From Minwuia sp. (GTDB lineage: Bacteria > Pseudomonadota > Alphaproteobacteria > Minwuiales > Minwuiaceae): a DNA stretch of 64,000 nt. Numbering within the stretch: position 1 is the stretch's first letter; the number at the start of each line of letters is the position of its first letter. Position numbers and translations under genes: made by a program. Under the pieces are notes generated by a model. That model worked only from the letters and a program-made list of their open reading frames with translations. It searched no databases and was not told the DNA's origin. The DNA lies in assembly GCA_029213165.1 (NCBI GenBank), contig JARGNO010000013.1:1-64000 (forward strand), read 5' to 3'. Below, piece after piece: positions 18,097-35,382 of this stretch.

Positions 18097-18145
18097 ACCG
18101 CCCGAAGCCCCCTCACGCACATGAGGCCGCTTTCCCGCATGACTG

Positions 18146-19714
18146 TTACCCGCCATAGTCACCCTCCGACGGCGCCGGGCTTTCATCCTCCCGGACGCCG
18201 ATGCCGATGTAGAACCGCCCACCGCTGCGGTCCTTCCGCTCGTAGCCCATCTCCACCATCTTCTGGCCGAACGCCTTGTTCGACCACACTCGTTCGCCGA
18301 CCCGCTTGCACCATTCCTGGTAGGCGTCGAACAGCTTGCCCGCGCCGATGTCCAGATGTGGATTGACCACCACCATGGCCGCCACGAACTTGCCCACCGG
18401 GTCCCCTTCGGCGCGGTAGTCGGCGGTCGCGTCCGCCACCTCCGCCGGCACCTGCAACCCATCCTCCAGCCACAGCCGCAACCCATCCAGAACCCAGTTC
18501 AGCACCCCAGACCGTTCCGCCCACAGCCTGTCGGGCAGCGCCGCATCCCGTTCCGCAACCGGTATCTGTACCTCCCATGGCACCAGCAGCACGCGCCGCC
18601 AGATGCCGTCATCCTGGTCGCTGATCTTCGGCTTGTGGTTGCCCGCGATGACGATCTTGAACTGCGGCAGGAAATGGAACGGCGGCTTGTAGAGCTGCCG
18701 CGCGGGCAGCGGGTCACCGCCCGTCATGGTCTTCAGCCGCGCCGGGTCCAGCTCCTGCCCCCGGTTCGGTTCGGAGACCTGGACGAAGCGCGCGCCGGGC
18801 AGTTCCGCGATATCCGGGGTCGCTTCCGACCCGCTGCGCCGGTCATCCTTGATCAGGCTCCCGAACGGCAGCGCCTTGGTATAGCCCCCCATCATCCGCC
18901 CGATCAGATTGTTGAAGGTCGATTTGCCGTTCGCCCCTCCACCGAAATCGAACACCATCTTCTGTTCGTCGGTGCGCCCGGTCTGGCAATATCCTGTCCA
19001 CCGCTGCAGGAACCCGCGTACCGGGGCCAGGGGCTGTACCCTGTGCAGGAATGCCTTGAATACCGGGGCATCCGCCGCCGGGTCATAGGTCACCGGGCAC
19101 AGGTGCGTGATCAGATCGCCCCGCTCATGCGGCCGCAGCACGTCACAGGCACCGGACAGCTCCAGCGTCCCGTTCTCCAGGTTCAGCACCATCGGGTCGC
19201 TGTCCAGCGCCGCCGCTGGCACGTTCAGATAGGGCTCCGCCTCCCGGATCATCGCCGTGATCCGCTTCGATTCCCCGCATTCGGCGGACCATCCCCCCAG
19301 CGCGCTGGCCAGATCCCGCAGCCGCGACCGGTCCACATGCGGCGTCGCCTCGGATTCGGAGGCCTCCCGCGCCGCCTGCGCCTCCACCAGCACCATCCGC
19401 GCCGTGAAGTGCGCCACCTGGCGCAGCGCCGCCACCGCCCCCTTGGTGGTCCAGCGCCGCCCGTCCCAGCGATGCCAGCCCAGTTCCGGGATGTTCATGA
19501 AGTCCCCGCCGGCCCGCGCGATCAGCCTGTCCGCATTGCCGACATCGTTCAGTTCCTTTTCGGCCAGCTCCAGGTCGCTGGGCCCGCCGGGCCGGGGCCG
19601 GGGCAGGGCCACCCCACCGTCCGGTCCCTCATCGTCCCGCCGCACACCGCCGGGAAAGGGCACCACACCCGCCGCCGCCGCCGCCGACCTGATCGCATCC
19701 GTATCCGTTGTCAC
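18146..19714 (-). CDS. P4/D5-family primase-helicase (SF3)
   Basis: This 522-residue protein is the phage replicative helicase. A D5-type N-terminal part (YLNVPAAALDSDPMVLNLENG then VLRPHERGDLITHLCPVTYD) precedes an SF3 ATPase: Walker A in FGGGANGKSTF (about residue 270), an arginine-rich sensor region, and IVIAGNHKPKISDQDDGIWRR, the diagnostic motif C of this group. A winged-helix tail ends the protein. Its start overlaps the prim-pol stop (ATGA), so primase and helicase are made together. Confidence 0.92.
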   Translation of the reverse strand: MTTDTDAIRSAAAAAGVVPFPGGVRRDDEGPDGGVALPRPRPGGPSDLELAEKELNDVGNADRLIARAGGDFMNIPELGWHRWDGRRWTTKGAVAALRQVAHFTARMVLVEAQAAREASESEATPHVDRSRLRDLASALGGWSAECGESKRITAMIREAEPYLNVPAAALDSDPMVLNLENGTLELSGACDVLRPHERGDLITHLCPVTYDPAADAPVFKAFLHRVQPLAPVRGFLQRWTGYCQTGRTDEQKMVFDFGGGANGKSTFNNLIGRMMGGYTKALPFGSLIKDDRRSGSEATPDIAELPGARFVQVSEPNRGQELDPARLKTMTGGDPLPARQLYKPPFHFLPQFKIVIAGNHKPKISDQDDGIWRRVLLVPWEVQIPVAERDAALPDRLWAERSGVLNWVLDGLRLWLEDGLQVPAEVADATADYRAEGDPVGKFVAAMVVVNPHLDIGAGKLFDAYQEWCKRVGERVWSNKAFGQKMVEMGYERKDRSGGRFYIGIGVREDESPAPSEGDYGG

Positions 19715-21297
19715 AGGCCCCTCCGCCGCATCCGGTTCGCCATGTCCCGCAGACCGGGAATGACCATTTCACTTACCTGCCGCCCGAATCCGGCATGCGC
19801 CGAACCGATGCGCGCCAGCTCCGCCGCATCGATCTCCCCGCCATGCACGATGATCAGCCGCCGCACCACATCGGGTAACCGTACCGATATCCTGTCGCCG
19901 CGCCCGGGCAGCGCCCAGCAGGCCCGGTTCAGCACACTGGCCACGGCCAGCGCCTGCAGCACGTCTCCGGCCAGCAGCAGTTCCCGCTCCGCCGCCCGGA
20001 TCCGTATCGTGCCCCCGTCGGGCACACCGATGCAGCGGACATCACCGCCGCCGTCCGCATCCATGGTCACCACGCCGATCCCCCCGGCGCTGCCATCGCG
20101 AACCGGAAACATCAGGTCACCCCGTGTCCCGCAGGCACCACTCTCCGGCCGCAGGAACCGCGCATCCACACTGTCCGGATCGATCCCGAACCGCCGCAGC
20201 GCCGTCGCCGCCGGGGTCGCGGGCACCGGCCACCCGGCCCGCCACAGCTTCCCCGCATCGCGAATCCCCGTCTGCCGCCGTTCCGTCGGTGCCACAGACG
20301 CATCATGGTCCGCGCCGGATCCGGCACCGCCGGTCCTGACGTCCCGCCCCCGCACGATCTCCGCCACCTTCGCCGCCGCCCGCCCGCAGGCGGCCATCCC
20401 GCCCCGCAGGCCCGACCCGATGGTGGCCTCCACCGCCTTGACGCCGTCGTCCGCCACCAGGCCGCTGATCTCCGCCGCCCGGCCCAGCACCTGGCGCACC
20501 TCGCTCTCGCCGATCGCCCCCGCACCGACCAGTTGCCCCAGTGAATAGGCCGCCCGGTTCAGGGCATCATTGCGCTGCCCCTTGCCCGCCCGCGCCACGT
20601 CACCATGCGCCCCGTCCAGCGCCGCCTCGACGTACCGCCGCAACCGGCTGTCGCCCTCTGCCGCCGCCATCCTGACCCGCGCCGGAACCGGCCCGGCCGG
20701 TCCCGCCACCGGGGGCGGGGCCGACGGTTCATCCTCCCGCAGGAACAGCACCCGCAGCCCCTCCGGCAAGGCGGGCAGGGGTTGTCCCGGTTGCCACGGC
20801 ACCGCCCAGGTATAGCGCCGCCCCGATGCCATCCGCGACGGCGGCGCGATCACGTAGCCATTGTCCGCCCTGAAATCGACGCCGCGACAGGGCTTCCGGT
20901 TGCCGATCACGGTCCCTTCGGGCACCTCCGGCCGGGCGAACCACAGATGCACCCCCCCGGACTGGGTCACCACCGCCGCCCCGTCCGCCGGGATCGTCTC
21001 CCCCGCGACCTCCGACAGCCGCCGCAGCACGTCCAGCGGCTTCTCGCCTGGGGCGGGGTCCAGATCCACCACCACCGCCCCCGCGGTGCCCGGCACCACC
21101 CCGATCAGCGCATCGGTCCACCGGAACCACCATTGCGTCACCTGGTCGATCCGTGCACTCGCAACCTTGAATCCATCCTCGATCAGCGGTTGCTTGCCCT
21201 TCTGGCCACCCCAGCCGGGATGACACGGAAACACCGGAATCCCGTGCCGCGCAAACCCCACCGCCGCCCGCCCGATCGCATTCAGCGCATCAGCCAT
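19711..21297 (-). CDS. Bifunctional primase-polymerase (AEP prim-pol)
   Basis: A 528-residue protein that should lay primers for phage DNA synthesis. The AEP catalytic core is at residues about 10-185: YGIPVFPC-like ARHGIPVFPCHPGWGGQKGK, the metal-binding VVVDLDPAP, SGGVHLWFARP and GVDFRADNGYVIAPPS. The C-terminal half has a Toprim-like region (LMFPVRDGSAGGIGVVTMDA). The start at 21297 has GGGAG upstream; 21318 is less likely. A plus-strand toxin-antitoxin pair separates it from the methyltransferase gene upstream. Confidence 0.88.
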   Translation of the reverse strand: MADALNAIGRAAVGFARHGIPVFPCHPGWGGQKGKQPLIEDGFKVASARIDQVTQWWFRWTDALIGVVPGTAGAVVVDLDPAPGEKPLDVLRRLSEVAGETIPADGAAVVTQSGGVHLWFARPEVPEGTVIGNRKPCRGVDFRADNGYVIAPPSRMASGRRYTWAVPWQPGQPLPALPEGLRVLFLREDEPSAPPPVAGPAGPVPARVRMAAAEGDSRLRRYVEAALDGAHGDVARAGKGQRNDALNRAAYSLGQLVGAGAIGESEVRQVLGRAAEISGLVADDGVKAVEATIGSGLRGGMAACGRAAAKVAEIVRGRDVRTGGAGSGADHDASVAPTERRQTGIRDAGKLWRAGWPVPATPAATALRRFGIDPDSVDARFLRPESGACGTRGDLMFPVRDGSAGGIGVVTMDADGGGDVRCIGVPDGGTIRIRAAERELLLAGDVLQALAVASVLNRACWALPGRGDRISVRLPDVVRRLIIVHGGEIDAAELARIGSAHAGFGRQVSEMVIPGLRDMANRMRRRGL

Positions 21298-21377
21298 GCT
21301 CGGCTCCCGCGCCGCCACCAGTCTGCCCGTTCACCCGGAAATGACCCGGACGCAGGCAGATGGACGATGCAAATTTT

Positions 21378-21424
21378 GCTATACTTTGCTTGACTATTTC
21401 CCGCCAAATTGCTATATTATGCTT
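21378..21424 (+). promoter_or_regulatory. Promoter and paired direct repeats of the toxin-antitoxin operon
   Basis: TTGACT (21390-21395) and TATATT (21413-21418) are separated by 17 bases, a strong sigma-70-type match. Two similar 14-mers, GCTATACTTTGCTT (21378-21391) and GCTATATTATGCTT (21411-21424), overlap the -35 and -10 boxes, as an operator for the HTH antitoxin would. The stretch is markedly AT-rich compared with its surroundings. Confidence 0.75.
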
Positions 21425-21442
21425 ATCGGAACAACGGGGGCC

Positions 21443-21700
21443 ATGATGGAACTGACGATCACGAAGCGGGCGGGCAAGGAACTGGCCAAGGCACCGGCCC
21501 ATGTCCGCGCCGCCGTCATCGAAAAGATCAAATCCATCTCCACCGGCACCGATGCCGCGAACCTCGATATCCGCCCGCTGGCAGGCAGCACCGACGAATT
21601 CCGCCTCCGCCATGGTGCATATCGCGCCATCTTCACCATTCAGGATGATATCCTGACCGTCACGGCCTTCGGACCCCGTGGCGGCATCTACAACAGATAG
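21443..21700 (+). CDS. RelE/ParE-superfamily toxin
   Basis: An 85-residue protein with the RelE fold pattern: TKRAGKELAKAPAHVRAAVI, a middle DIRPLAGSTDEFRLRHGAYR and the final TVTAFGPRGGIYNR. RelE-type toxins cut mRNA on the ribosome, and ParE-type toxins poison gyrase; the sequence does not decide between them. ATG at 21443 or 21446 follows GGGGG. The antitoxin gene follows 12 bases downstream, so this operon has toxin first, the reverse of classical relBE but common with HTH antitoxins. Confidence 0.85.
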   Translation: MMELTITKRAGKELAKAPAHVRAAVIEKIKSISTGTDAANLDIRPLAGSTDEFRLRHGAYRAIFTIQDDILTVTAFGPRGGIYNR

Positions 21701-21712
21701 GGGAGAGACCTG

Positions 21713-22198
21713 ATGACCACCGACGACAGCACCACCATGGGGTTCATGACCTCCAGCCCCGATTTCTTCGCCAGGCCGGAGAAAACGGATTCCCGATCCC
21801 CGTTCCAGATCACCCGCGACCAGACCGGCCGCGCGGTCAGCGCCTCCATGGACTGGCAGACCTTCCTCGGCATCGCGACACCGGAAATGCTGGCGCTTGT
21901 CCCCGACGACGACTTGGCCGGCATCTCCGCCGCCCGTGCCGCGCACGACCCCGACAGCCGCGAAACCGAACCGCTGGAGGTCGCCGAACGGCTGATGCTC
22001 GGTGATCACCCGATCAAGGTCTGGCGTGAATACCGCGGCCTCACCCAGACCGAACTGGCTTCCCGTGCCGACACCAGCAAGGCCTATGTCTCCCAGCTTG
22101 AAACCGGCACCCGCAGTCCCAGTCGGAAGCTGCTGACCGCCATCGCCGCCGCCCTCGATGTTCCTGCCCGCGACCTTCTCCCGGACCCGAACGACTGA
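21713..22198 (+). CDS. XRE-family HTH antitoxin
   Basis: A 161-residue partner of the toxin. The helix-turn-helix is near residues 100-150 (VWREYRGLTQTELASRADTS then KAYVSQLETGTRSPSRK). The N-terminal part (MDWQTFLGIATPEMLALVPD) is the likely toxin-binding segment. GGGAGAG lies just before the start. It should bind the direct repeats over the promoter at 21378-21424 and repress the operon. The pair could stabilise the prophage or act in exclusion. Confidence 0.85.
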   Translation: MTTDDSTTMGFMTSSPDFFARPEKTDSRSPFQITRDQTGRAVSASMDWQTFLGIATPEMLALVPDDDLAGISAARAAHDPDSRETEPLEVAERLMLGDHPIKVWREYRGLTQTELASRADTSKAYVSQLETGTRSPSRKLLTAIAAALDVPARDLLPDPND

Positions 22199-22215
22199 TC
22201 CGTCCCTGCGCCGGC

Positions 22216-23604
22216 TCATGCCGCCACCCCGAACGACGCCAGCACCAGCGCGCGGGATGTGCGGGTCGGCACCGCATTGCCGATCTGCCGTTTCACCTCG
22301 GTTTTCGTGCCTCTGAAGTCGTAATCCCTCGGAAACGACATCGCCGCCGCCAGCTCGTGCGGCTGCAGCATCCGATAACGGATATCCACCGGCGGCCCCT
22401 GCACAGGCTCGATCAGCCCGAACCGGTCCCGCGTCGTCACGGTGTCCAGCGTCTCCGACACCGGCTTCGCGCTGGCATTGTTGCCGTAATAGGCCATCAC
22501 CATGGGTTCGATCAGTGCGCCCGCACCGCGCGACGTGACTGTCGGCAACGGGGCGTTGATATCGTGATTGCGCGGTGACTGTCCGGCCCGTTCGCCGAAG
22601 TTCGGCACGATGAACGGCTCCACCAGCGCATGCGCGCCCAGCGCCGGAATCGTCGCCATCGGCTTGTCCACTGCCCGCGCCAGTCCTCCGGATTGCTGTG
22701 CCAGGATGATGGGCTGCACCGGCTCCACCAGCCCGAAATGGCTCCCGCCGGCGGTGATCGCGGGCAGGGGCAGGTCCAGGTCGCGGGCATCGGCGTGATT
22801 GCGCAGCACGACCAGAAACGGTTCCGCCGCCGCCCCGAACCGCGACAGCCCCGCCGCGATCCGCGCCAGCGTCTTCGGGCGCAACGGCCGGTCCCGGCTG
22901 AAGATCGATGCCGACGGCAGCGACCAGTCGATGATCTCCCGCGCCGCCCGCCACGGGGCCATGCCCATTTCGGATGCCCCGTCTGGGCGGGCGTGGCTCT
23001 GCCGCGGCCAGGTGATCGGCCCCCCGTCGCGGCGCCCCAGCAGGAAGAACCGCTCCCGCGTCGTCGGATCGCCATAATCGGCACAGTTCAGCACCCGGCA
23101 TTCGACGTTGTAGCCGATGGCGCGCAGGGCACTCAGCCAGGCACCGAAGAATTCGCCGCGCCTGCTCGGGACCGGGCGGCCCGTTTCCGGGTCGACGGGG
23201 CCCCACTGCATGAATTCCGGCACGTTCTCGATCATGATCCGGTCGACCCGCAGCGACGTGCACCACGTCACCACGTGCCATGGGTCCATCCGCTGCTGGT
23301 CGCTGGTCGGCTTTCCGCCCCGCGCCCGGCTGTGATAGGTGCATGTCGGCGACGCCATCAACAGGTCCAGCCGCCCCTCCGGCACGATCACTTCCGGCCG
23401 TGCAGTGCCGATATCGACACAATGATGCCGCGCACCGGGATGGTTCGCCGCATGGGTCTCGATCGCCACCGGCCAGTGATTGACGCAGACCAGCTCCGGC
23501 ACCTTGCCCAGCCGCTCCAGCGCCATCACCGCCCCCGTCGAACTCCCGCCGGCCCCGCAGAACAGATCCGCGATCAGCGCCGGTTGCGCCCGCCCCCCGC
23601 TCAC
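22216..23604 (-). CDS. C5-cytosine DNA methyltransferase
   Basis: A 462-residue enzyme that would methylate cytosine at C5. Motif I is IADLFCGAGGSS (14-22), the catalytic cysteine is Cys88 in ASPTCTYHSRARGGKP, the ENV motif is at 126-128, motif VIII-like CADYGDPTTRERFFLLGRR follows, and motif X is KRQIGNAVP near the end. Between VIII and X lie four related units ending in VEP or IEP (GSHFGLVEP, GAHALVEP, GAGALIEP, RFGLIEP), a repeat-built target-recognition region. No restriction partner is nearby, so it probably protects phage DNA. It overlaps the other methyltransferase gene by 4 bases. Confidence 0.92.
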   Translation of the reverse strand: MSGGRAQPALIADLFCGAGGSSTGAVMALERLGKVPELVCVNHWPVAIETHAANHPGARHHCVDIGTARPEVIVPEGRLDLLMASPTCTYHSRARGGKPTSDQQRMDPWHVVTWCTSLRVDRIMIENVPEFMQWGPVDPETGRPVPSRRGEFFGAWLSALRAIGYNVECRVLNCADYGDPTTRERFFLLGRRDGGPITWPRQSHARPDGASEMGMAPWRAAREIIDWSLPSASIFSRDRPLRPKTLARIAAGLSRFGAAAEPFLVVLRNHADARDLDLPLPAITAGGSHFGLVEPVQPIILAQQSGGLARAVDKPMATIPALGAHALVEPFIVPNFGERAGQSPRNHDINAPLPTVTSRGAGALIEPMVMAYYGNNASAKPVSETLDTVTTRDRFGLIEPVQGPPVDIRYRMLQPHELAAAMSFPRDYDFRGTKTEVKRQIGNAVPTRTSRALVLASFGVAA

Positions 23605-24392
23605 AGCATCGCCTCCTGTCGGGCGCGGTCAGGGGGCTGCACGAACAGGTCGCCCTGGCGGTGTGCCTCGCGGATGCGGCTGACGGCGACGTCGAAATAC
23701 CGTGCATCCCGTTCGATGCCGGTGAAGGGCCGTCCCGCCCGTACGCAGGCGACGCCGGTGCTGCCCGATCCCATGAACGGGTCCAGCACCGACCGGCCCG
23801 GGTCCGTGAACAGGCCCACCAGCTCCGCCATCAGGCTGACCGGCTTTTCGGTCGGGTGCATGCCGTGACGGTCCCGCCCATTGCACGGGTGCGTGAAGAC
23901 ATTGCGCCGCCCGCCACCGTTCCAGCGTGACAGGCCGCCGCCACACCAGGCGGCAACGAAGTTCTCCGCACCCATCGCCGGGCCCTGGCCATTGAACTGT
24001 GGCGCGCTGTCCGGTTTCACCCAGACGCAGGCGCGCTTGTACCGTGCCCCGCTGGCCTCCAGCACATCACGCCACGGCGCCACCCCCTCCGGCGTGCAGA
24101 ATATCAGGCACCAGCCGTCTGTCTGGCTGACCAGCATCGGCGTCACCACGTCCCGGATCGCGTCGATGCTCTCGAAATCCACCGGCGGCGGGTTGGCGTG
24201 GCCATCCGTCCGGATCCGCCGCGCCGATCCGTTCGCCCCTTGCCCCCGCTTCGCCGCGTGCATGTGCGATTCATAGGGCGGATCGGTGATCACGGCGCCG
24301 AACGCACCGCCCAGGACGGGCAGGACTTCCAGGCAATCGCCATGGATCAGCGTGCATGCACCGATGCGCTCAACCCTCCACCCGCCGCTCAT
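23601..24392 (-). CDS. Adenine-N6 or cytosine-N4 DNA methyltransferase
   Basis: A 263-residue amino-methyltransferase of the beta order: catalytic DPPY at residues 37-40 (VITDPPYESH) comes before the SAM-binding motif in VLDPFMGSGSTGVACVRAG. HPTEKPVSLM is the usual conserved box. The target site is unknown. It is too short for the C-terminal domain of CcrM, but it lies in an operon with a GcrA-like gene (4-base overlap), which raises the question of a methylation link. It overlaps the C5 enzyme gene by 4 bases. Confidence 0.9.
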   Translation of the reverse strand: MSGGWRVERIGACTLIHGDCLEVLPVLGGAFGAVITDPPYESHMHAAKRGQGANGSARRIRTDGHANPPPVDFESIDAIRDVVTPMLVSQTDGWCLIFCTPEGVAPWRDVLEASGARYKRACVWVKPDSAPQFNGQGPAMGAENFVAAWCGGGLSRWNGGGRRNVFTHPCNGRDRHGMHPTEKPVSLMAELVGLFTDPGRSVLDPFMGSGSTGVACVRAGRPFTGIERDARYFDVAVSRIREAHRQGDLFVQPPDRARQEAML

Positions 24393-24988
24393 GCCGCCGT
24401 CTCCGGGTCATCGTCGTTCTTCACCCGTGGGCGGGATGCAGCATCGTGTATCGCGCACAGCCCGCGCCGTCGGGACACCACCGGCCCGGCACCGCAGAAC
24501 CCGAATCCGACCTCCCCGACTTCCCCGATCGGCCAGGCGCAACGGCCCCTGGGCGGTTCATGCAGGCCGGGCCAGTGGGCGGTACCATCGCATTCGGGTA
24601 CCGTTGCCCGGTCGGGCGCCTTCCGGCATGTCGTGTCATCCTCCGCCCGGCGCACCAGCACCAGGTCGGTCGGGCAGGCGGCCACCGCCGCCCGCATCGC
24701 CGCCGCTTCTGCCCGGGCCTGTTCGATCTCGTCCCGCATCTGCTGTGCCATGGCGTGGCTCTTCCGCTGTGCCTTGCGCCATGCCTCCCGGCCCGCAGGC
24801 GCACCCTGTCCACCCTTTTGCACGCTCAGGCCCAGGCGACCCCGCTGTCCGCAAACCATCCCGGTGCTGACGCCGATCCCGAACTCCCGGGTCAGGATCC
24901 CGGCGGTTTCCTGTACCGGCCTCCCCTCCCGATGCAGCACCCGCAACCGCGCCCGCATGGCATTCGTCCATATGCTCGGGCCAGGCAT
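24389..24988 (-). CDS. GcrA-like cell-cycle transcription factor
   Basis: A 199-residue protein. The N-terminus is a GcrA-type DNA-binding region (SIWTNAMRARLRVLHREGRP, with IWT replacing the usual SWT). A long alanine/glutamate helix follows at about residues 75-110. The C-terminus has the family's cysteine-rich RNA-polymerase-binding pattern: RCAWPIGEVGEVGFGFCGAG then RGLCAIHDAA. In Caulobacter GcrA activates promoters carrying methylated GANTC. Here it sits in a phage early operon with two DNA methyltransferases. The ATG at 24988 is used; a TTG directly before it is an alternative. Confidence 0.75.
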   Translation of the reverse strand: MPGPSIWTNAMRARLRVLHREGRPVQETAGILTREFGIGVSTGMVCGQRGRLGLSVQKGGQGAPAGREAWRKAQRKSHAMAQQMRDEIEQARAEAAAMRAAVAACPTDLVLVRRAEDDTTCRKAPDRATVPECDGTAHWPGLHEPPRGRCAWPIGEVGEVGFGFCGAGPVVSRRRGLCAIHDAASRPRVKNDDDPETAA

Positions 24989-25041
24989 CAAAGACCCCTT
25001 CGCGGATTGTGCGGTGCCCGGTTTCCTGTAATCATCGGGTC

Positions 25042-25575
25042 ATGAACATTCAGGCAACATTCCACGCCGCCGGTCCCGGCTGCACCGCCCGCCGCCGCCC
25101 GCCCGTTCGGGTGATTCTCGCTCTGGCCCTCGGGCTCGGGCTCGGGTTCATGGTCCATGCCCCGGCATCCGCCCGACCCGCCATCGGTGACGTCTTCTCC
25201 GGCCCCGCCCGCATCATCGACGGTGACACGCTGATGATCGGCGGTCAGTCCATCCGGCTCTTCGGCATCGACACCCCCGAACGGGGACAGCCGGGCTTTG
25301 CCGCCGCCACCCGCCATCTGCGCGCGATCACCGCAGGCGGGGCCGTCACCTGCCACACCGTCGACGTCGACCGCTACCGCCGCGCCGTCGGCATGTGCCG
25401 AACAGGCCCCCGCGCCACGGTCACGGAACAACAGGAAACCCTGTCCGAAATGATCCTTCGATCCTGCCATGCACGACGTCTCTCGCGCTGGGATCACGTC
25501 GTCAGTCCCGGCATGCGAACCCGGCTGGATCAGGCCCGTGACCTCTGCACCGGAACGGGTGAAGGAGACGGGTGA
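25042..25575 (+). CDS. Secreted thermonuclease-family (SNase) protein
   Basis: A 177-residue protein with a basic N-terminus and a signal peptide (about residues 21-44, cleavage after PASA). The SNase core follows: ARIIDGDTLMIGGQSIRLFG then IDTPERG, with the expected catalytic Arg72, Glu80 and Arg114 in DVDRYRRAVG. It should be exported and cut nucleic acid in the periplasm or outside. It reads against the early operon and fills the gap between two of its genes, so it is cargo. A role in destroying incoming phage DNA is possible but unproven. Confidence 0.85.
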   Translation: MNIQATFHAAGPGCTARRRPPVRVILALALGLGLGFMVHAPASARPAIGDVFSGPARIIDGDTLMIGGQSIRLFGIDTPERGQPGFAAATRHLRAITAGGAVTCHTVDVDRYRRAVGMCRTGPRATVTEQQETLSEMILRSCHARRLSRWDHVVSPGMRTRLDQARDLCTGTGEGDG

Positions 25576-25595
25576 GGGGGGCATCTGCTTGACCA

Positions 25596-26168
25596 TCACC
25601 GCACCCCCGCGACTGCCTTGTCGCGGCGCGTGACGACGGAATAGGGATCGACCTCGGTATTCGCGGTCAGGTGACTGCGGCAACTGTCGCAATGACGGTG
25701 CCCGGCCCCGGTCGACCAGAAGGTGTCGCCGCAGCGGATGCAGCCCCGGTACCGCTCCGGTCCCTTCGGCACCTTCACGATGCCCCGCCGGATCCGCTCG
25801 ATCTGGACCCCCACTTCGGACGCACGCCGCCCCATGCTGTTGGCGATCGACTGATGCTTCATGTCGGTTTCCATGAAATGTGCCAGCTGGCGCAGTTCGA
25901 AATCGCTCCATGGCTGACCGACACTGCCCTCTGCATCCCCCTTCTGCCGTCGCGGTTCCGGGGCCGTTCGCCGCGCCCCGCCCCCTTCGGACGACCACCG
26001 GACCCGGCGGGCCTCCAGGCCCAGCTTTTCAAGTCTCAGCCGCACCGAAGACGGGGCCCGCCCCAGTTCCTGCGCAATGTCCCCGACCGTTGCGGCCACC
26101 CCGCACATCCGCCGCATCTCGGCATCTTCCCTGGCCGTGAAGGGCTGGCGGATCGACTCCCCGCTCAC
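25596..26168 (-). CDS. Myb/SANT-like DNA-binding protein with C-terminal zinc ribbon
   Basis: A 190-residue protein. Two helical DNA-binding units are visible: residues about 8-50 (QPFTAREDAEMRRMCGVAAT, then VGDIAQELGRAPSSVRLRLE) and 85-125 (QPWSDFELRQLAHFMETDMK then HQSIANSMGRRASEVGVQIE). A zinc ribbon ends it, with Cys pairs in YRGCIRCGDTFWS and RHCDSCRSHL. It is probably an early regulator. Its ATG overlaps the stop of the CII-like gene by 4 bases. I cannot name a phage family for it. Confidence 0.6.
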   Translation of the reverse strand: MSGESIRQPFTAREDAEMRRMCGVAATVGDIAQELGRAPSSVRLRLEKLGLEARRVRWSSEGGGARRTAPEPRRQKGDAEGSVGQPWSDFELRQLAHFMETDMKHQSIANSMGRRASEVGVQIERIRRGIVKVPKGPERYRGCIRCGDTFWSTGAGHRHCDSCRSHLTANTEVDPYSVVTRRDKAVAGVR

Positions 26169-26656
26169 GCCTCCGCCTCCAGCGCCGCCAGCGCCTTCTC
26201 CAGCGCCGCCAGATGGGTCATCGCCTCGGTTGCCCGCGCCCGCAGGCCCAGGACCCGCGATTCATCCGCCGTGATGGTTCCGGCGACACCGTTTTCCACA
26301 TGCCCGGCCAACGCCCGTGACAGGTCACCCGCCACCTGCGCCGTGTCCTTCGTCACCTGCGCCAGATGGTTCAGCCATGCCGAATCCCCCTCCACCGGCG
26401 GCAAGGGAATCAGCAGATGCCGGGCCTGCCATGCCAGTTCGGTGGTGACGATCGGGCCGACCTCGCGCTCCAGTATCGCCACGGCATCCACCGGCGGTTG
26501 CGGCGCCTCGTGCGGTGACCCCCAGCGGCTGACCTGTGACCGGTCCCGCCCCACGGCCAGTGCGGCGGCATCGACACCGCCATAGGCCTTGAACAGCCGC
26601 CGCCACGCGTGGTTCAGCCGGTACCGGTCCTGTTCGGTGAACTCCTGCCCGCTCAT
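26165..26656 (-). CDS. CII-like phage transcriptional regulator
   Basis: A 163-residue protein. Its first 60 residues (RYRLNHAWRRLFKAYGGVDA then AALAVGRDRSQVSRWGSPHE) form a lambda-repressor-like fold with recognition helix QVSRW, as in CII-type regulators of prophages. The C-terminal half is helical (EKALAALEAEA at the end) and may oligomerise. GGAGG precedes the start. Its place straight after cro matches lambda cII, suggesting a role in the lysis-lysogeny choice. Confidence 0.6.
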   Translation of the reverse strand: MSGQEFTEQDRYRLNHAWRRLFKAYGGVDAAALAVGRDRSQVSRWGSPHEAPQPPVDAVAILEREVGPIVTTELAWQARHLLIPLPPVEGDSAWLNHLAQVTKDTAQVAGDLSRALAGHVENGVAGTITADESRVLGLRARATEAMTHLAALEKALAALEAEA

Positions 26657-27249
26657 GCCGCATCCTCCCGTGACGATCCGATGGCCGTGCCCAGCACCCG
26701 TTCGAACCAGCGCGGCGCTCGACCGGGCACCTCGGCGTCGGGGTCAGGCCCGTCTGTCATGCGGGGGGTGGCATCAACCTCCGCCCCTGTATTTGCGTTG
26801 CCGCTTCGGGCGCGGTCCCTGACACTGTCGTCATGGACAAGCACCAGCAGCACCGGAACGACTTCCCCGTCACGGCCCGTCCGGCCCCCGCCCTGCACGA
26901 CAGTGGGGTCGGGAATCCCCGCCGCCGTCAGGGCGGCATGGACCCGATCGATCAGGCTTGGCATCTCAGGTCCGCGCGCCATGCCAGCCGCATCGTTGAG
27001 GGGCAGCACCTGCAGGCCCTTGCCCGCGCCTTCTTCCGCACCGCGGGCAATCAGCACAGGGCCATGCAGTCCGAACAGATCGTTGGGCGTGACCGCCCCA
27101 CCGGTCAGGTCATGAACCGCCCTGACATTCGCCGCTGTCAGGGCATCGCCCTCGCACAGACGGGTGACGACGGCGGGGGTTCGACCGATGCGTTCCGCCA
27201 CGTCGATGCGGCGCAGCCCACTCTCATTGATCCAGTCAGCCAGTTTCAT
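26653..27249 (-). CDS. Cro-like repressor, first gene of the early operon
   Basis: A 198-residue protein. The N-terminal HTH is MKLADWINESGLRRIDVAER followed by IGRTPAVVTRLCEGDA, of the Cro/YdaS type. The rest is poorly conserved and partly disordered (residues about 140-180). The ATG at 27249 is preferred because GAGGG lies 6 bases upstream; that same GAGGG is the end of the operator at 27256-27282, so repressor binding and ribosome binding use overlapping sequence. It is divergent from cI. It overlaps the CII-like gene by 4 bases. Confidence 0.7.
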   Translation of the reverse strand: MKLADWINESGLRRIDVAERIGRTPAVVTRLCEGDALTAANVRAVHDLTGGAVTPNDLFGLHGPVLIARGAEEGAGKGLQVLPLNDAAGMARGPEMPSLIDRVHAALTAAGIPDPTVVQGGGRTGRDGEVVPVLLVLVHDDSVRDRARSGNANTGAEVDATPRMTDGPDPDAEVPGRAPRWFERVLGTAIGSSREDAA

Positions 27250-27255
27250 GACAGC

Positions 27256-27282
27256 CCTCAAATTTGTCTCTCATATTTGAGG
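27256..27282. promoter_or_regulatory. Operator between cro and cI
   Basis: Half-sites CCTCAAATTTG (27256-27266) and CATATTTGAGG (27272-27282) face each other across 5 bases and match the palindrome at 28108-28121. The site lies just upstream of the cro start and would cover its promoter, although the -10/-35 boxes are not clear. It is the likely target of CI and Cro. Confidence 0.7.
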
Positions 27283-27341
27283 AACAGGCCGCAATGAATG
27301 CAAGTGATTTTTTTGAGGGCAGTTCTATCCTCTGCCTTGAC

Positions 27342-28079
27342 ATGACCACGAAGCCGAAATCGCCGGACCCCGCCGTACCCGACCCAGGCGCGCATCACAT
27401 CCGCGCATGGCGACGCCGTGCAGGCCTGAAACAGACTGCCCTGGCAGAGGCGATCAGCCGCGATATCGCCGTCATCAGCCGGATCGAGAATCACCAGCAA
27501 GAACCCAGCGAACAGATGCTGGCCAGCATTGCCGCCCGTATTGGTGTCACCCCCGCCGATCTGCTGCGGCCACCGCCGGCCGACGGCGCGCCGCCGCGAA
27601 AATCACGCCCGGCGCTGACGCCGTCCACCGGCCGTCCGGCACCTGATGCGCCGCCGATCCCGCCCCGGTCGTCGATGCCGCTGGACCTGCCGTTGCTCGG
27701 CACTGCCGCCGGTTCCTTCAATGGTGAGTTCATCCTGCAGGAAACCGTGGATTATGTCCGCCGCCCACCCGCACTGGCAGGCACCGCCCAAGCCTACGCG
27801 ATCGAGGTCACCGGCGATTCCATGGCCCCACGGTTCGAAGAGGGGGACCTGGTATTCGTGCATCCCGGTCGCCGTGTGCTGGTCGGTGACGACATCATCC
27901 TGCAGACCCGGAACGGCGAACATGATGAACTGCAGACCTTCATTAAGCGCTTCGTCCGACAGGATGCGGATACCGTGACGGTCCGCCAGTTCAACCCGCC
28001 GCAGGACATCACGTGGGAGCGCCGATTCGTCGTCGCCATGCACCGCGTCATGTCACTGCGGGACTGCTTCGGCATCTAG
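27342..28079 (+). CDS. CI-like repressor with LexA/S24 autoprotease domain
   Basis: This protein of about 245 residues should maintain lysogeny. The HTH is at residues 20-52 (IRAWRRRAGLKQTALAEAIS...VISRIENHQQ). After a Pro-rich linker comes an S24 domain with an Ala-Gly cleavage site (LLGTAAGSF, 123-124), catalytic Ser160 in VTGDSMAPRF and Lys202 in FIKRFV, so DNA damage through RecA should trigger self-cleavage and induction. The ATG at 27342 has no ribosome-binding site and TATCCT lies 11 bases upstream, so the mRNA may be leaderless, as for lambda cI from PRM. An alternative ATG at 27294 follows GAGGAA. Confidence 0.88.
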   Translation: MTTKPKSPDPAVPDPGAHHIRAWRRRAGLKQTALAEAISRDIAVISRIENHQQEPSEQMLASIAARIGVTPADLLRPPPADGAPPRKSRPALTPSTGRPAPDAPPIPPRSSMPLDLPLLGTAAGSFNGEFILQETVDYVRRPPALAGTAQAYAIEVTGDSMAPRFEEGDLVFVHPGRRVLVGDDIILQTRNGEHDELQTFIKRFVRQDADTVTVRQFNPPQDITWERRFVVAMHRVMSLRDCFGI

Positions 28080-28107
28080 GACACCTCAAGTCTCAAATTT
28101 TATGTTG

Positions 28108-28121
28108 CCTCAAATTTGAGG
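28108..28121. promoter_or_regulatory. Perfect operator palindrome before the integration operon
   Basis: CCTCAAATTTGAGG is a perfect 14-bp palindrome. A partial copy, CTCAAATTTT, lies at 28092-28101. It matches the cro-cI operator half-sites and lies 45 bases before the first gene of the rightward operon, so CI or Cro probably controls that operon. Confidence 0.75.
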
Positions 28122-28165
28122 TTCGGTCATCATGCCGCCATCACATCCGCTGATGGAGGCTTCAG

Positions 28166-28405
28166 ATGCCGATCGATCTTTCCCGCAAACGTGAACCCGA
28201 TCATGTCCTGATCGAACGCATGGCGAACCATCTTGTGGCCTGTCGTGCGGTCAAACACACCGCCACGGTGCAGGACATGCGCCAACGCGGCTGGTCCATC
28301 GAACAGATCACGAAGTTCCGTGAACGGGCCGTCGCACGGGCGGAGGTCATTCACGCCGCCGACCGCGCCAGCGGGCAGGGTGGCCAGTCCGGGCAGGCAG
28401 CCTGA
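28166..28405 (+). CDS. Small hypothetical protein, first gene of rightward operon
   Basis: A basic 79-residue protein of unknown function: MPIDLSRKREPDHVLIERMA, then RQRGWSIEQITKFRERAVAR and a Gly/Gln-rich tail. GGAGG lies 6 bases before the start. The helical middle could be a small DNA-binding unit, but no family is recognised. Its stop overlaps the next start by one base (TGATG). Confidence 0.6.
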   Translation: MPIDLSRKREPDHVLIERMANHLVACRAVKHTATVQDMRQRGWSIEQITKFRERAVARAEVIHAADRASGQGGQSGQAA

Positions 28406-28638
28406 TGCGCGGTTCGCCTTACCCCGTCAATCCGCTTGATGTCCGGAGATCATTCCGGCACCGAATGGTCCCTGCCATCTCCACCAGCACGACGGCGACC
28501 CCGGTCCCGACGGCAGATGACCTGCTGCGGCAGGTATGGGCCGCGCGGCCTCTGGACTGGCAGTCCGGTGACCCGGCTTTCGCGGTGGCCATGCAGGCTG
28601 TCCGCGCGCACCTGGCCAGCACAGGGGTGCTGTCATGA
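28405..28638 (+). CDS. Small hypothetical protein
   Basis: A 77-residue protein without a recognised family. The first 30 residues are basic and Ser/Thr-rich. The rest (TADDLLRQVWAARPLDWQSG then DPAFAVAMQAVRAHLASTGV) looks like two helices. It is joined to its neighbours by overlaps of 1 and 4 bases, which supports it being translated. Confidence 0.5.
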   Translation: MRGSPYPVNPLDVRRSFRHRMVPAISTSTTATPVPTADDLLRQVWAARPLDWQSGDPAFAVAMQAVRAHLASTGVLS

Positions 28639-28877
28639 CCGAAGTCATCGCCGCCGACCGCCTCCGCCAGATCATCGAACGCATCGAACGGCTGGAGGAA
28701 GAGAAGGCGGCACTGACCGCCGACATCAAGGAGGTCTACTCCGTCGCGAAGGCTCAGGGCTTCGAACCGAAGATCGTCAAACAGGTCATCGCCCGCCGCA
28801 AGCGGGATCGGGATGAGCAACAGGAAATGGATGCCGTCCTGCGCCTGTACCTCGAAGCCCTGGGGGAACCGTCATGA
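28635..28877 (+). CDS. GapR-like nucleoid protein (DUF2312)
   Basis: An 80-residue protein matching DUF2312 throughout: AADRLRQIIERIERLEEEKA, then DIKEVYSVAKAQGFEPKIVK and a C-terminal EQQEMDAVLRLYLEALG. In Caulobacter the family member GapR binds overtwisted, AT-rich DNA ahead of replication forks and helps type II topoisomerases. This phage copy may serve phage replication or redirect host chromosome control. It overlaps both neighbours by 4 bases. Confidence 0.88.
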   Translation: MTEVIAADRLRQIIERIERLEEEKAALTADIKEVYSVAKAQGFEPKIVKQVIARRKRDRDEQQEMDAVLRLYLEALGEPS

Positions 28878-29566
28878 ACGTCACCACCCTGCACCCCTCC
28901 GCCACCGAAAGGCAGTCCAGCACCATGACCAACCGGCCATGGTTGCTGACCGCGTCGGGCGGCGTCTATCACTTCCTGGACCCGGACCCGGCGGACCTCC
29001 GCTGGGCCGACATCATCGAACCGATGGCGCGGTTGCCGCGTTTCGGGGGGCACAGCCAGGGCGCGCCGTTCTCCATGGCGCAGCACAGCTGCATGGTGGC
29101 GGAAATGGTCACACAGCAGGACCGGCCATGGGCCCTGCTGGCAGATGCGCATGCCGCCCTGCTGACGCCACTGCTGCCACCGGTCAGCAACGCCATGACC
29201 GCGGCAACGATCCGGCAGGCCCGGCAACGCAACCTGCCGACATTGCCCAGCATCAATACGCAGCGGGAAGGTCTGATGGACCTGGTCACCGCCGCCCATG
29301 TCGCCATCTGCCGCTTTGCCGGCATCGATCCGCCGGACCGCGGCACCGCCGACCGGGTTGCCATGGCCGACCGCTATGTCACCGCGCGGGCCGTGCACTG
29401 GCTGCTGCCTGACGGCCCGGGCAAGGATCGGTGGCGGCGCAGTGATCCCGAACTGTTCAGCCTGCCCAGGGGCAGGGCCGTCCGGCCATGGAACTGGGAG
29501 GCGTCGGCGACCATGTACACCGACGCCCTGACCCGTGCCATCCCGGCCTTCGACGGGCGGGCCTGA
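28874..29566 (+). CDS. HD-fold (YfbR-like) protein with altered HD motif
   Basis: A 230-residue protein. The family features are [20 protein letters not shown] near residue 60 and a final acidic site in [12 protein letters not shown]. YfbR-like enzymes remove phosphate from deoxynucleotides. The central motif that normally reads L-H-D-A reads [10 protein letters not shown] here: the histidine of the HD pair is alanine, and the next conserved glutamate is missing. Catalysis is therefore doubtful unless His at ADAH substitutes. It may be a binding protein. Start and stop are coupled to GapR and nearly to SSB. Confidence 0.65.
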
Positions 29567-29567
29567 C

Positions 29568-30083
29568 ATGGCCGGTTCCGTGAACAAGGTCATCCTGATC
29601 GGCAATCTCGGTCAGGATCCGGAAATGCGCAACGGGCCGAGCGGCGACCCGATCGCCAACCTGTCGGTGGCCACCTCCGAAACGTGGAAGGACCGCACGA
29701 CCGGCGAAAGGAACGAACGGACCCACTGGCACCGCGTCGTCATCTTCAATCCCCACCTGGCATCGATCGCCCGGGATTACCTCCGCAAGGGCGCGAAGGT
29801 CTATCTGGAGGGACAGTTGCAGACGCGCAAGTGGACCGATCAGTCAGGCATGGACCGCTACACGACGGAGGTCGTGCTGAACCGCTTTCGCGGTGACCTG
29901 CAGATGATGTCATCCCCTGGCGGGCGCCCGTCGGAAGACAGCTATGGCCAGTCCCGGAATGACCCGGCCCGCAGTGACCCCTCCGGCGACGCCTATGCCC
30001 GCGCCCGCGACGGTACCGGACCCGCAGCCGGATCCGGGGCAGGGGGCGCCGCCCCGGACCTCGACGACGAAATCCCCTTCTGA
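29568..30083 (+). CDS. ssb: Single-stranded DNA-binding protein
   Basis: A 171-residue SSB. The OB fold opens [20 protein letters not shown], continues with [20 protein letters not shown] and [19 protein letters not shown], and is followed by a disordered Gly/Ser/Asp linker. The last residues DLDDEIPF form the acidic tip that recruits replication and repair proteins. The start at 29568 sits one base past the previous stop. It protects single-stranded phage DNA. Confidence 0.95.
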
Positions 30084-30097
30084 CGACAAGTGAACCC

Positions 30098-30613
30098 ATG
30101 ATCATCCGCATTCCCAACTGGCTGCGTGACCGGCTTCTCGCCTTCGCGCAGCGCCGCATGCAACGCCAGCCGGAACCCGATTTCACCATCGGCCCGACCG
30201 ATGATCCCTACATGCGCCGCTGGTACATCTGGCGCATCCGCTGGCTGTCCTGCCTCTATCTGCACCAGGTCATGCGCAGCGACGACGACCGTGCCCTGCA
30301 CGATCATCCCTGGGCCAGCCTATCGATCATCCTGCATTGCGGTTACCACGAGGTCGTGCCCCGCCACCACGCCGGCCCCGGTTGCCCGGACACGGTCCTG
30401 CACTGGCGCCCGCCCGGATGCCTGATCCTGCGCGGCGCATCCGCCGCCCACCGCCTGGTGATCGACGACCCCGCCATGGTCGCCACGACACTGTTCCTGA
30501 CCGGACCGCGGATTCGCCAGTGGGGTTTCTGGTGCCCCCGCGGCTGGGTGCCCTGGCGCAAGTTCACCGACCCCGACAACACCGGCCTGATCGGCCCCGG
30601 CTGCGGAGACTGA
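30098..30613 (+). CDS. Cupin-like hypothetical phage protein
   Basis: A 171-residue protein common in form among phages of alphaproteobacteria but without known function. RALHDHPWASLSIILHCGYH and HWRPPGCLILRGASAAHRLV give the spaced histidines and beta pattern of a cupin barrel. The C-terminus (RQWGFWCPRGWVPWRKF) is Trp-rich. A metal-binding or sugar/nucleotide-modifying role is possible, but I cannot choose. Confidence 0.6.
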   Translation: MIIRIPNWLRDRLLAFAQRRMQRQPEPDFTIGPTDDPYMRRWYIWRIRWLSCLYLHQVMRSDDDRALHDHPWASLSIILHCGYHEVVPRHHAGPGCPDTVLHWRPPGCLILRGASAAHRLVIDDPAMVATTLFLTGPRIRQWGFWCPRGWVPWRKFTDPDNTGLIGPGCGD

Positions 30614-30615
30614 CC

Positions 30616-31068
30616 ATGACAGATGAACCGGACTTCACCGGATTGGCCGCCACGCTGGACCGCGTCGCCATGACCCGCAGCGCCTATACGCTCGACGAAC
30701 ATGGCGCGAAGACCGCGATCGCTGACATCACCGCATGTCACGAACTCATGACACAGGCTGCCGATGCCATCCGGACGCTGGCGACCCCGAACCTGTTCTG
30801 GCCCGAAGGCGAAGATGAGGGATGTGAAGATCCGGAATCATATCACCGGTTCGTTGGATACGACGCCGAAGTGATCGCGTTCAGAACGGCAAGGGTAGGA
30901 TTGCCCCCGATTTTCTCGGCAACGGTTGTGCACAAGACCGCGGACAGCAAGCCGGTCGTCTGCGAATTTCAGCGATACGCAACCCGGGAAGAGGCGGAGA
31001 AAGCATACGCGGACTCCCTCGCCGCCGCCCGCGAGGCCGCAGGCCTGGATCCGGAGGGCGCATCGTGA
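30616..31068 (+). CDS. Hypothetical protein
   Basis: A 150-residue acidic protein of no recognised family. The N-terminal half is helical (TLDRVAMTRSAYTLDEHGAK). The C-terminal half resembles a small alpha/beta unit (SKPVVCEFQRYATREEAEKA). The ATG at 30616 is used; the frame is open further upstream, but that part is a shadow of the cupin-like gene. Its stop overlaps the next GTG start. Confidence 0.5.
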   Translation: MTDEPDFTGLAATLDRVAMTRSAYTLDEHGAKTAIADITACHELMTQAADAIRTLATPNLFWPEGEDEGCEDPESYHRFVGYDAEVIAFRTARVGLPPIFSATVVHKTADSKPVVCEFQRYATREEAEKAYADSLAAAREAAGLDPEGAS

Positions 31069-31919
31069 CGGCGACGGATGTTCCATCGATCGCTGACCTG
31101 GCTGCTGGCTTCGAGGCAAGTGGCTGGTCCATGGCGTCAGACCTTGGTGACAGGCCGCGGGTGGAGTGGCAATCGACCGAAAACCTGCTGGGCGATCCCC
31201 GATTCCAGCGCGGCCTCGGACGCAAGTCGCATCATCTGATCCGCCGCATCGCTCAGAATTTCCAGTGGTGCCTCTTCGGCATCATCATCTGCACGGATAA
31301 TGGTGACGGCACGTTCATGGTCATCGATGGCCAGCACCGGGCCATTGCCGCAACCCTGCATGGATCAGTCCGATCCGTGCCGGTGTTCGTCACCGACGCG
31401 GAGACACTGCATGAACAGGCCCGCGCCTTCCTCGATATCAACCGTCACCGGGTGAAGCTCAACGCCTTGCAGATCCACAAGGCGCGCCGGACGGCAGGCG
31501 ACCCGGACGCCGCCGCGATCGCGCGGATCTGCGACGAAACCGGGATCACCATCCCCGGCAATGTCGTCAGCTGGAGCAACATCAAACCCCTGCATGCACT
31601 CTGCATCGGCACCCTCTACAACGTGCGGCGCATGTATGGCGACGACGTGCTGCGCCGCAGCCTGAAGGTCTGCGCCGCCGCATGGCCGGATTCGGCGGGA
31701 GATATCATCGCCGTCGTCGTCGGCGCCACCGCCTCCGCGATCAACGAAGGCGACACGGATGACACCGATATCGTCGCCATTCTCCGCACCCGTACCGGTG
31801 ATGAATGGAAGGAACGGGCCCGCGCACAGGCGCGGGCGGACGGCACCACCATGGCCAAGGCACTGCACTCGTTTCTCGTTCAGGCATGCGCCCCAAAGGC
31901 GAAAGGCAGAAAGCAATGA
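31065..31919 (+). CDS. ParB/DGQHR-type nuclease-fold protein (DUF6551-like)
   Basis: A 284-residue protein beginning with GTG at 31065 (GTGA overlap). The core motif is TFMVIDGQHRAIAATLHGSV near residue 90, the signature of ParB-like and DndB/DGQHR proteins. A helical C-terminal half follows (LHALCIGTLYNVRRMYGDDV and VVVGATASAINEGD). Relatives bind DNA or nucleotides; in DNA-modification systems DGQHR proteins regulate the modification enzymes. It is coupled to a Gp37/Gp68 gene. Activity unknown. Confidence 0.7.
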   Translation: MTATDVPSIADLAAGFEASGWSMASDLGDRPRVEWQSTENLLGDPRFQRGLGRKSHHLIRRIAQNFQWCLFGIIICTDNGDGTFMVIDGQHRAIAATLHGSVRSVPVFVTDAETLHEQARAFLDINRHRVKLNALQIHKARRTAGDPDAAAIARICDETGITIPGNVVSWSNIKPLHALCIGTLYNVRRMYGDDVLRRSLKVCAAAWPDSAGDIIAVVVGATASAINEGDTDDTDIVAILRTRTGDEWKERARAQARADGTTMAKALHSFLVQACAPKAKGRKQ

Positions 31920-33992: not shown

Positions 33993-34246
33993 ACGCCCCA
34001 GCGCGCATCGTCCGGCAGGGACAGGCGGCCTATCCGCCGCTGCTGATGCGTCGCGACACGGCGGCGGCGTTCCTCGATCTGTCCACCACCACCTTCGACC
34101 GCTGGATCGACTCCGGGCACCTGGGCCCCGGCACCCGCATCGACGGCGTCCGCGTCTGGCACCGCGACGACCTTGCCGCCGCCGCCGATCGGCTGTTGAA
34201 TAGGGCCACGGCGACCGGGCAGGGCGGCAACCTGTGGGACGGATGA
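33989..34246 (+). CDS. Excisionase/AlpA-like winged-helix protein
   Basis: An 85-residue protein with a MerR/AlpA-type DNA-binding motif: LMRRDTAAAFLDLSTTTFDR, then WIDSGHLGPGTRIDGVRVWH. Its position directly before the integrase, overlapping it by 4 bases, suggests it is the Xis that directs excision. A purely regulatory AlpA role is also possible. Confidence 0.65.
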   Translation: MNAPARIVRQGQAAYPPLLMRRDTAAAFLDLSTTTFDRWIDSGHLGPGTRIDGVRVWHRDDLAAAADRLLNRATATGQGGNLWDG

Positions 34247-35382
34247 CGCCACCGCCGCCCGCGCCGGATGACGGGCAGGGGAATGACATGTTGCTGGCGC
34301 GGCTGCGCTACATCGTTCAGGACAGGGACCGGCACGGCAATGTCCGCATCTACGTGCGCCGCCATGGCCGCAAGATCCGCCTGCGCGAAACCCCGGGCAC
34401 CAAGGCGTTCATGGCCGAATACCACGCCGCCCTGGCCGGTCAGCTCCCGCCATCACCGCGCCGCATGGCCCCGGATGATGGATCATTGCAGCACATGATC
34501 GACGAATACATGAAGTCGGCCACATGGCGCGCGCTGTCGCCGTCCACCCAGAAACTGCGGCGCAGCATCCTGAACCGCACCGCGGCGGAGGTGGTCGGTG
34601 ACCATACCGCAGGCAGCCTGCCAGTCAGTGCCATGGCCCGGCGCCACGTGGTCATGCTCCGCGACCGCGTGGCCGACAGGCCGGCAGCCGCCAACAATCG
34701 GGTGAAGATGTTGCGCCAGATGTTTTCCTGGGCGATCGAGAATGACCTGATCGGCGAAAACCCGGCGCGGCATGTGCGGTCACTCGACATGGTCGGCAAC
34801 AGCTGGACGCCCTGGACCCTCGAAGACATCGACGCATTCGCCCGGCATCACGCCGACGACCCCCGCGCGATGCTGGCACTGCACCTGCTGGTCTGGACCG
34901 GCGTGCGGCGCAGCGATGTCGTCACTCTGGGGCAGCAGCATGTCCGGACCATCGACGGACAGATGCATCTGGTCTTCACCATGACCAAGGGGCGGAAACG
35001 CAACCCGCGGCGTGTGGAACACCTGATATCGCCTCCGCTGAAACAGGCCATCGATCGCTGGGCCGACCCCGCGCAGCTGACGTTTCTCACGAACCAGTGG
35101 GGCCGGCCGTACACGGTTGAGGGTTTCGGCAACAGCTTCCGCAAGTGGTGCCAGCGCGCGGGCCTGGCTGACGGCCTCTCCGCCCACGGAATCCGCAAGG
35201 GTGTCGCTGCGATGACGGCCGAACTGGGCGCCAGCGAACACCAGATCATGGCCATGCTGGACCACGCCACCCCGTCGCAGGGTGCCGTCTATACGCGCAG
35301 CGCCAACCGCCGCCGCATGTCCGGCGAAGCCGTCACCAGCCTCAGCACCAAATTGTCCCACCTGCACCCCGGAAATAAATAG
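34243..35382 (+). CDS. int: Tyrosine integrase
   Basis: A 379-residue site-specific recombinase. The N-terminal arm-binding and SAM-like domains precede the catalytic domain, whose active residues are visible: Arg at 222-223 (TGVRRSDVV), Lys249 (MTKGRKR), His315 and Arg318 (SAHGIRKG), His341 (MLDHAT) and the nucleophile Tyr350 (AVYTRS). It should recombine the phage into the tRNA-Arg(CCT) gene, whose 3' end is 54 bases past the stop. The start at 34243 overlaps the excisionase-like gene. Confidence 0.95.
   Translation: MTPPPPAPDDGQGNDMLLARLRYIVQDRDRHGNVRIYVRRHGRKIRLRETPGTKAFMAEYHAALAGQLPPSPRRMAPDDGSLQHMIDEYMKSATWRALSPSTQKLRRSILNRTAAEVVGDHTAGSLPVSAMARRHVVMLRDRVADRPAAANNRVKMLRQMFSWAIENDLIGENPARHVRSLDMVGNSWTPWTLEDIDAFARHHADDPRAMLALHLLVWTGVRRSDVVTLGQQHVRTIDGQMHLVFTMTKGRKRNPRRVEHLISPPLKQAIDRWADPAQLTFLTNQWGRPYTVEGFGNSFRKWCQRAGLADGLSAHGIRKGVAAMTAELGASEHQIMAMLDHATPSQGAVYTRSANRRRMSGEAVTSLSTKLSHLHPGNK

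Follow-up and report, generated by a model that had tools for sequence, protein, structure and literature searches.

Why would a temperate phage carry relatives of two host cell-cycle regulators beside two DNA methyltransferases? The question is raised by a prophage in the 4.1 Mb genome of Minwuia sp. (assembly GCA_029213165.1), of which positions 1 to 64,000 of contig JARGNO010000013.1 (C60), starting at the first base of the contig, were analysed; this whole stretch is referred to as the window, and the integrated phage fills its left 35.4 kb. An initial annotation had described a GcrA-like factor, an N6/N4 methyltransferase and a C5 methyltransferase as one coupled operon, with a GapR-like protein in the opposite arm, and had proposed that the set ties phage development to the methylation-based cell cycle of the host or takes it over. 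Matches to PF07750, PF01555 and PF00145 bear out the first three identities, and the reading frames overlap by 4 bp (ATGA between GcrA and the methyltransferase, GTGA between the methyltransferase and the C5 enzyme). The GapR-like protein, a PF10073 match, is indeed encoded on the plus strand, in the integrase-bearing arm. The explanation that we prefer, tentatively and at somewhat less than an even chance, is a lytic-phase σ70-cofactor and DNA-modification module of a temperate siphophage, not a demonstrated takeover of the host cell cycle.

The slot behind GcrA

The host order, Minwuiales, was sampled with nine genomes, and sister prophages were found in G005 (locus L090), which belongs to the same genus as the window genome, and in G007 (contig C26, locus L303). 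All three Minwuia prophages share the gene order zinc-type helix-turn-helix (HTH) protein, GcrA, adenine-type methyltransferase, C5 methyltransferase, and the junctions between GcrA and the adenine-type methyltransferase are ATGA or GTGA. The slot behind GcrA is filled in the G005 prophage by a PF01555-type methyltransferase of 416 aa that is not orthologous to the window enzyme, the alignment of the two being limited to 58-residue motif blocks; the C5 enzymes of these two prophages are nearly unrelated, so the C5 gene was replaced too. In the G007 prophage, where a CII-like gene precedes the zinc-type HTH gene, GcrA and the adenine-type gene share an ATGA overlap, and the encoded enzyme has 50% identity (E=1e-63) with p027 of Sinorhizobium phage PhiLM21 (PhiLM21_p027), an enzyme whose GANTC specificity was shown experimentally (PMC5537653). 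The place after GcrA is thus taken by a different adenine-type enzyme in each of the three prophages; gene content, coupling and conservation of the slot were all seen directly. That the adenine-type enzyme has been exchanged repeatedly at one slot next to GcrA suggests that regulator and enzyme are retained together for a joint function. An unrelated IMG/VR contig, 3300031454_000230 (L143), independently carries a canonical GcrA gene whose junction with a p027-type methyltransferase gene is GTGA. Of the set that the initial annotation suggested looking for in other prophages, the GcrA-methyltransferase slot was present in both sisters and GapR in neither.

The frame of the window GcrA-like gene spans 24389-24991 on the minus strand, the better start being the ATG at 24988, preceded by AAGGGG. 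The protein scored 30.0 bits against PF07750 (curated cut-off 26.9; the six-frame search gave only 24.3 bits in one stretch) and E=0.0011 against C. crescentus GcrA (7ye1) with phmmer. As a single-sequence query it retrieved no relative from IMG/VR or the phage records, the only clear relative found in this way being the G005 protein (33% identity over 163 aa). The C-terminal Cys/Cys/Cys/His set is conserved (C151, C166, C179 and H182 are aligned), and, compared with 5yix_B, the sigma-interacting domain of GcrA, the AlphaFold model gave a Foldseek probability of 0.99 and a root-mean-square deviation of 1.3 over 41 columns (E=0.19), a likeness that may be helped by the canonical GcrAs present in the alignment used for the model. 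Judging from this model, the protein may bind σ70 via the retained C-terminal domain. A three-helix DNA-binding domain is predicted with high confidence (predicted local distance difference test score about 95). Its recognition helix reads VSTGMVCGQ in place of VTRNAVIGK, which is near-invariant among the other GcrAs compared; the sister helices are FTRNAVLGF in G005 and VSRSAVLGK in G007. Because near-invariant TRNAVIG residues are lost, we call the protein GcrA-like, i.e., a divergent member of PF07750, and, judged by sequence conservation, the loss makes it doubtful that it reads methylated GANTC, as the initial proposal would imply. A further variant of the family was seen in IMG/VR locus L098, where the frame 1459-2688 (minus strand) gave three separate GcrA-model matches and apparently encodes several DNA-binding repeats before one sigma-interacting domain.

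In the window N-methyltransferase, DPPY comes first, followed by HPTEKP, and the S-adenosylmethionine motif DPFMGSGSTG is last. The nearest solved relatives are DpnA (5hek) and then CcrM (6pbd). Identity to the host CcrM is 25% over the catalytic core, and the C-terminal extension of CcrM has no counterpart in the alignment (263 aa vs 360 aa), which rules out a CcrM-type identity; a PhiLM21_p027-type identity was ruled out by a best local E=2.4. The closest phage relatives, about 52% identical, belong to Rhizobium and Sinorhizobium phages, in which only a few genes separate them from large primase-type genes further downstream (one of these large genes carries no annotation); no close characterised relative was found. 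The C5 enzyme is 72% identical to that of the G007 prophage and 36% identical to the C5 methylase of Aeromonas phage phiARM81mr; the ARM81mr 5-methylcytosine (m5C) methylases are described as relaxed in specificity (PMC5537653). Both window methyltransferases look like orphan enzymes, since no restriction endonuclease is adjacent: no cognate one was found among the scanned neighbours, the region from 21443 to 26168 holding a RelE-like toxin, HTH proteins and an SNase-like protein.

GapR, the early operon and the prophage

The GapR gene is located downstream of CI, on the same strand as the SSB-like (single-stranded DNA-binding) and integrase genes. Its product is 69% identical to the host GapR, all phage records in our collection being under 60%, and in a tree it groups with Minwuia chromosomal GapRs (support 0.95). 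This clustering suggests capture from a Minwuia-like host, which, on sequence grounds, is the probable origin of the gene. Among the nine genomes of the order, only this prophage provides a second GapR; G005 and G007 each hold one GapR, on another contig. Among 50 GcrA-bearing viral contigs, a PF01555 enzyme was present in 16 and GapR above cut-off in 13, and both were present in 4, against 4.2 expected. The full set of GapR, GcrA and N-methyltransferase recurs, e.g., on one strand within about 4.6 and 5.7 kb in G093 and G097, but at chance frequency. The lack of GapR in the sister prophages and the chance-level co-occurrence rule it out as an obligatory partner, and its membership in the set, as initially drawn, is not supported; GapR is probably a separate gene rather than part of the module.

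GapR is frequent in phages, with matches in 104 phage records and at least 577 viral stretches. A published account (PMC12185513) puts the first phage-genome GapR in 2025, yet several of the 104 records are annotated as DUF2312 or UPF0335. In Rhizobium phage RHph_N28_2 (L312), a GapR domain is matched within a 305-aa protein encoded two genes past a CI-type repressor, with a p027-type methyltransferase further on, on the same strand.

The minus-strand genes run in the order XRE/Cro-like, CII-like, Myb/SANT-like with CxxC, GcrA, methyltransferase, C5 methyltransferase, primase-polymerase and D5 helicase, followed by terminase (Table 1). The Myb/SANT-like HTH protein has a homologue in the matching G005 slot, and a similarly laid-out protein was read there in G007. 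Because it runs divergently from the CI-type repressor gene and begins with Cro- and CII-like genes, the operon is probably lytic; by its likeness to lambda and PhiLM21 it would be the lytic early operon. It is probably silent in lysogens, which argues against the earlier view of a GcrA-like factor acting there.

Table 1. Prophage features, in window coordinates.
Feature	Position	Strand	Evidence and remarks
D5-type primase/helicase	18146..19714	-	phrog_1156 E=4e-126
Primase-polymerase-type replication protein, downstream of methyltransferases	19711..21297	-	phrog_5852, phrog_1156
C5-cytosine DNA methyltransferase, 462 aa	22216..23604	-	PF00145 99.8 bits, phrog_116; SPTC catalytic motif, ENV, TTRERF
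Amino-methyltransferase (N6/N4), 263 aa, beta-type motif order	23601..24392	-	PF01555 79 bits, phrog_67
GcrA-like protein, 199 aa: N-terminal HTH, long helical linker, C-terminal Cys/His sigma-interacting-type domain	24389..24988	-	PF07750
Myb/SANT-like HTH protein, C-terminal CxxC...CxxC; upstream regulator	25596..26168	-	phrog_323
CII-like regulator	26165..26656	-	phrog_101; 48% homologue in G007 prophage
XRE/Cro-like protein, first gene of the probable lytic operon	26653..27249	-	weak HTH matches; homologues in G005 and G007 prophages
Divergent regulatory region	27250..27341	.	GANTC absent
CI-type repressor, divergent from minus-strand operon	27342..28079	+	phrog_4 E=3e-28
GapR (DUF2312/UPF0335) homologue, 80 aa	28635..28877	+	PF10073 104 bits, 72/72 positions; E=4e-22 to 6cfy
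Tyrosine integrase	34243..35382	+	phrog_1; adjoins tRNA-Arg(CCT)
tRNA-Arg	35436-35512		beside integrase

Two loci on the opposite strand interrupt this order. The gene of an SNase-like (PF00565) protein whose N-terminus is hydrophobic and signal-like (25009-25575, plus; 46% homologue in the G005 prophage) is inserted between the zinc-type HTH gene and GcrA, and a RelE-like toxin and HTH antitoxin-like pair (21443-22198, plus) separates the C5 methyltransferase gene from the replication genes.

The element, with its terminase, portal, protease, decoration, major head, tail and integrase genes (lambda-type morphogenesis), is a temperate siphophage, a lambda-like prophage. Since the contig begins at window base 1, the left end of the prophage may be missing; a second copy of the tRNA-side sequence was searched for and not found. 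The host chromosome has one GcrA (contig C54), one GapR (C42) and one CcrM-like gene (C101), none of them on the prophage contig, and within the order a GcrA match was present in 9/9 genomes and a GapR match in 8/9. The prophage also encodes an anti-repressor Ant-like protein in the late region (2977-3654, minus) and, in the left arm, a ParB-like protein (31065-31919, plus) and a phrog_2045 protein (31916-32950, plus), the latter 59% identical to its G005 prophage counterpart.

Competing explanations

If the genes form a lytic-phase module, induction or infection would lead the minus-strand early operon to make the Cro/CII-like regulators, the zinc-motif HTH protein, the GcrA-like protein and both methyltransferases, and then the replication proteins. 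The methyltransferases would modify newly replicated phage DNA, and the GcrA-like protein would bind host σ70 through its retained C-terminal domain and direct RNA polymerase to a group of promoters, the most plausible being the middle or late promoters of the phage, perhaps in a methylation-dependent manner. GapR, separately, would probably act on overtwisted phage DNA during replication. The σ70 binding, promoter targets, methylation dependence and timing are what we infer here; the site ahead of the replication genes and opposite the CI-type repressor, and the parallels with PhiLM21, support such a module.

Two points weigh against it. Orphan methyltransferases have an ordinary anti-restriction explanation. 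The coupling was also surveyed at 75 non-redundant viral GcrA loci, retrieved with patterns that favour canonical recognition helices. An adenine-type methyltransferase was present within the fetched flanks of 21 of them. Directly downstream, within 500 bp, there were 3 such enzymes vs 0.76 expected (P=0.04, uncorrected), and the excess was not significant at 1-5 kb. A first clustering test, with beta-type and C5 models only, gave no excess at phage GcrA; the weak excess appeared after p027-type enzymes were added. With so weak an excess, GcrA-methyltransferase coupling is not general. Three candidate loci were rejected: the GcrA match in Microcystis phage Mwe-JY25 is below cut-off and in an implausible reading frame, and no methyltransferase was present near L282 or L283, which resemble chromosomal GcrA rather than prophage genes.

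It is quite possible, if improbable on balance, that the genes have no joint function: the methyltransferases would serve anti-restriction only, the GcrA-like and GapR-like proteins would be independent accessories, and their adjacency would come from mosaic chance and shared ancestry within Minwuia prophages. Phages often carry orphan methyltransferases (the window N-methyltransferase was matched in 519 phage records and the C5 enzyme in 148), GapR and PF01555 enzymes are distributed independently of each other across GcrA-bearing contigs, as noted above, and C5 enzymes showed no excess directly downstream of GcrA at the 75 loci. Such an account is at odds with the three different adenine-type enzymes in one coupled slot and with the independent GcrA/GANTC-type pair in L143.

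We consider it unlikely that the phage owns a writer-reader switch, in which the coupled methyltransferase would write its own mark and the divergent GcrA would read that mark, not host GANTC, on phage promoters. If so, replicated phage DNA would activate its own late transcription, and writer and reader would have been re-matched after each enzyme replacement in the sister prophages.

Host takeover, in which the phage GcrA would read GANTC sites methylated by either CcrM or the phage methyltransferase and drive host cell-cycle genes while GapR would help replication, appears more unlikely still. The families are the same as those of the host regulators, the G007 prophage pairs GcrA with a GANTC methyltransferase homologue, and such use was proposed for the phiCbK GcrA (PMC3556154) and for GANTC phage methyltransferases (PMC5537653). 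However, the near-invariant helix is replaced in the window protein, the two sister prophages lack GapR, and the sites themselves are scarce. A roughly threefold deficit of GANTC was seen in the prophage (56 vs 146 expected) and likewise in the host flank (39 vs 130 expected), and the intergenic stretches from 17028 to 35429 contain none, although in about 900 bases of such sequence finding no site is not statistically significant. For promoter control through GANTC, part of the original proposal, there is thus no site in the early intergenic regions. Relative to dinucleotide shuffles, against which GANTC is depleted, GATC is over-represented in prophage and host DNA alike.

A decoy that would occupy σ70 and dampen host GcrA-dependent transcription in lytic growth, having kept the sigma-interacting-type domain and, with its altered recognition helix, lost GANTC reading, is very unlikely, the three-helix DNA-binding domain that a pure decoy would not need being still confidently predicted.

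Comparison with known systems

Like the host CcrM/GcrA pair of Caulobacter (PMC3667746), the prophage combines an adenine-type methyltransferase with a GcrA-family σ70 cofactor; in this genome, however, the host genes are on separate contigs, whereas the phage enzyme has no counterpart of the CcrM C-terminal part and TRNAVIG is missing from the phage GcrA. The GcrA of the phiCbK-like Caulobacter phage (gp222; PMC3556154) likewise belongs to PF07750 and is encoded by a phage, and an action on the host cell cycle was proposed for it, but that phage is a virulent giant with no coupled methyltransferase described, while the window phage is temperate and its recognition helix altered. In Brevundimonas phages Kikimora and Domovoi, GcrA and GapR occur together, and a PF01555 enzyme was not found there.

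A similar layout is that of PhiLM21, where the GANTC methyltransferase p027 belongs to a right-hand operon that starts with Cro, leads to DnaB and lies opposite CI (PMC5537653); Phi2LM21 likewise pairs an N6-methyladenine and an m5C enzyme (PMC5537653). Unlike the window prophage, PhiLM21 gave no GcrA in its first 50 kb with a local hidden Markov model search, and the window enzyme is not homologous to p027. The GapRs of Azospirillum phage Cd (gp10) and Erythrobacter phage R34L1 (PMC12185513) are of the same family as the window GapR, which differs in being closer to the host protein than to any phage record in our collection. GcrA, UPF0335 (GapR) and methyltransferases are each listed among the genes of Sinorhizobium meliloti phiLM21-like prophages in passages of PMC12429752 that do not present them as one coupled operon.

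Phage GcrA (PMC3556154, PMC6630229), GANTC phage methyltransferases (PMC5537653, PMC7139368) and phage GapR (PMC12185513) have each been described. Among the open-access papers searched, none was found to report translational coupling between GcrA and a methyltransferase, which is limited evidence of absence. What the Minwuia prophages add to these systems is a slot order shared by all three, with a different adenine-type enzyme in each. A coupled slot with interchangeable enzymes gives a testable claim, namely that certain phages of Alphaproteobacteria bring along a methylation-dependent transcription factor of their own, and a recognition helix that varies along with the enzyme is natural material on how GcrA-type proteins read methylated DNA.

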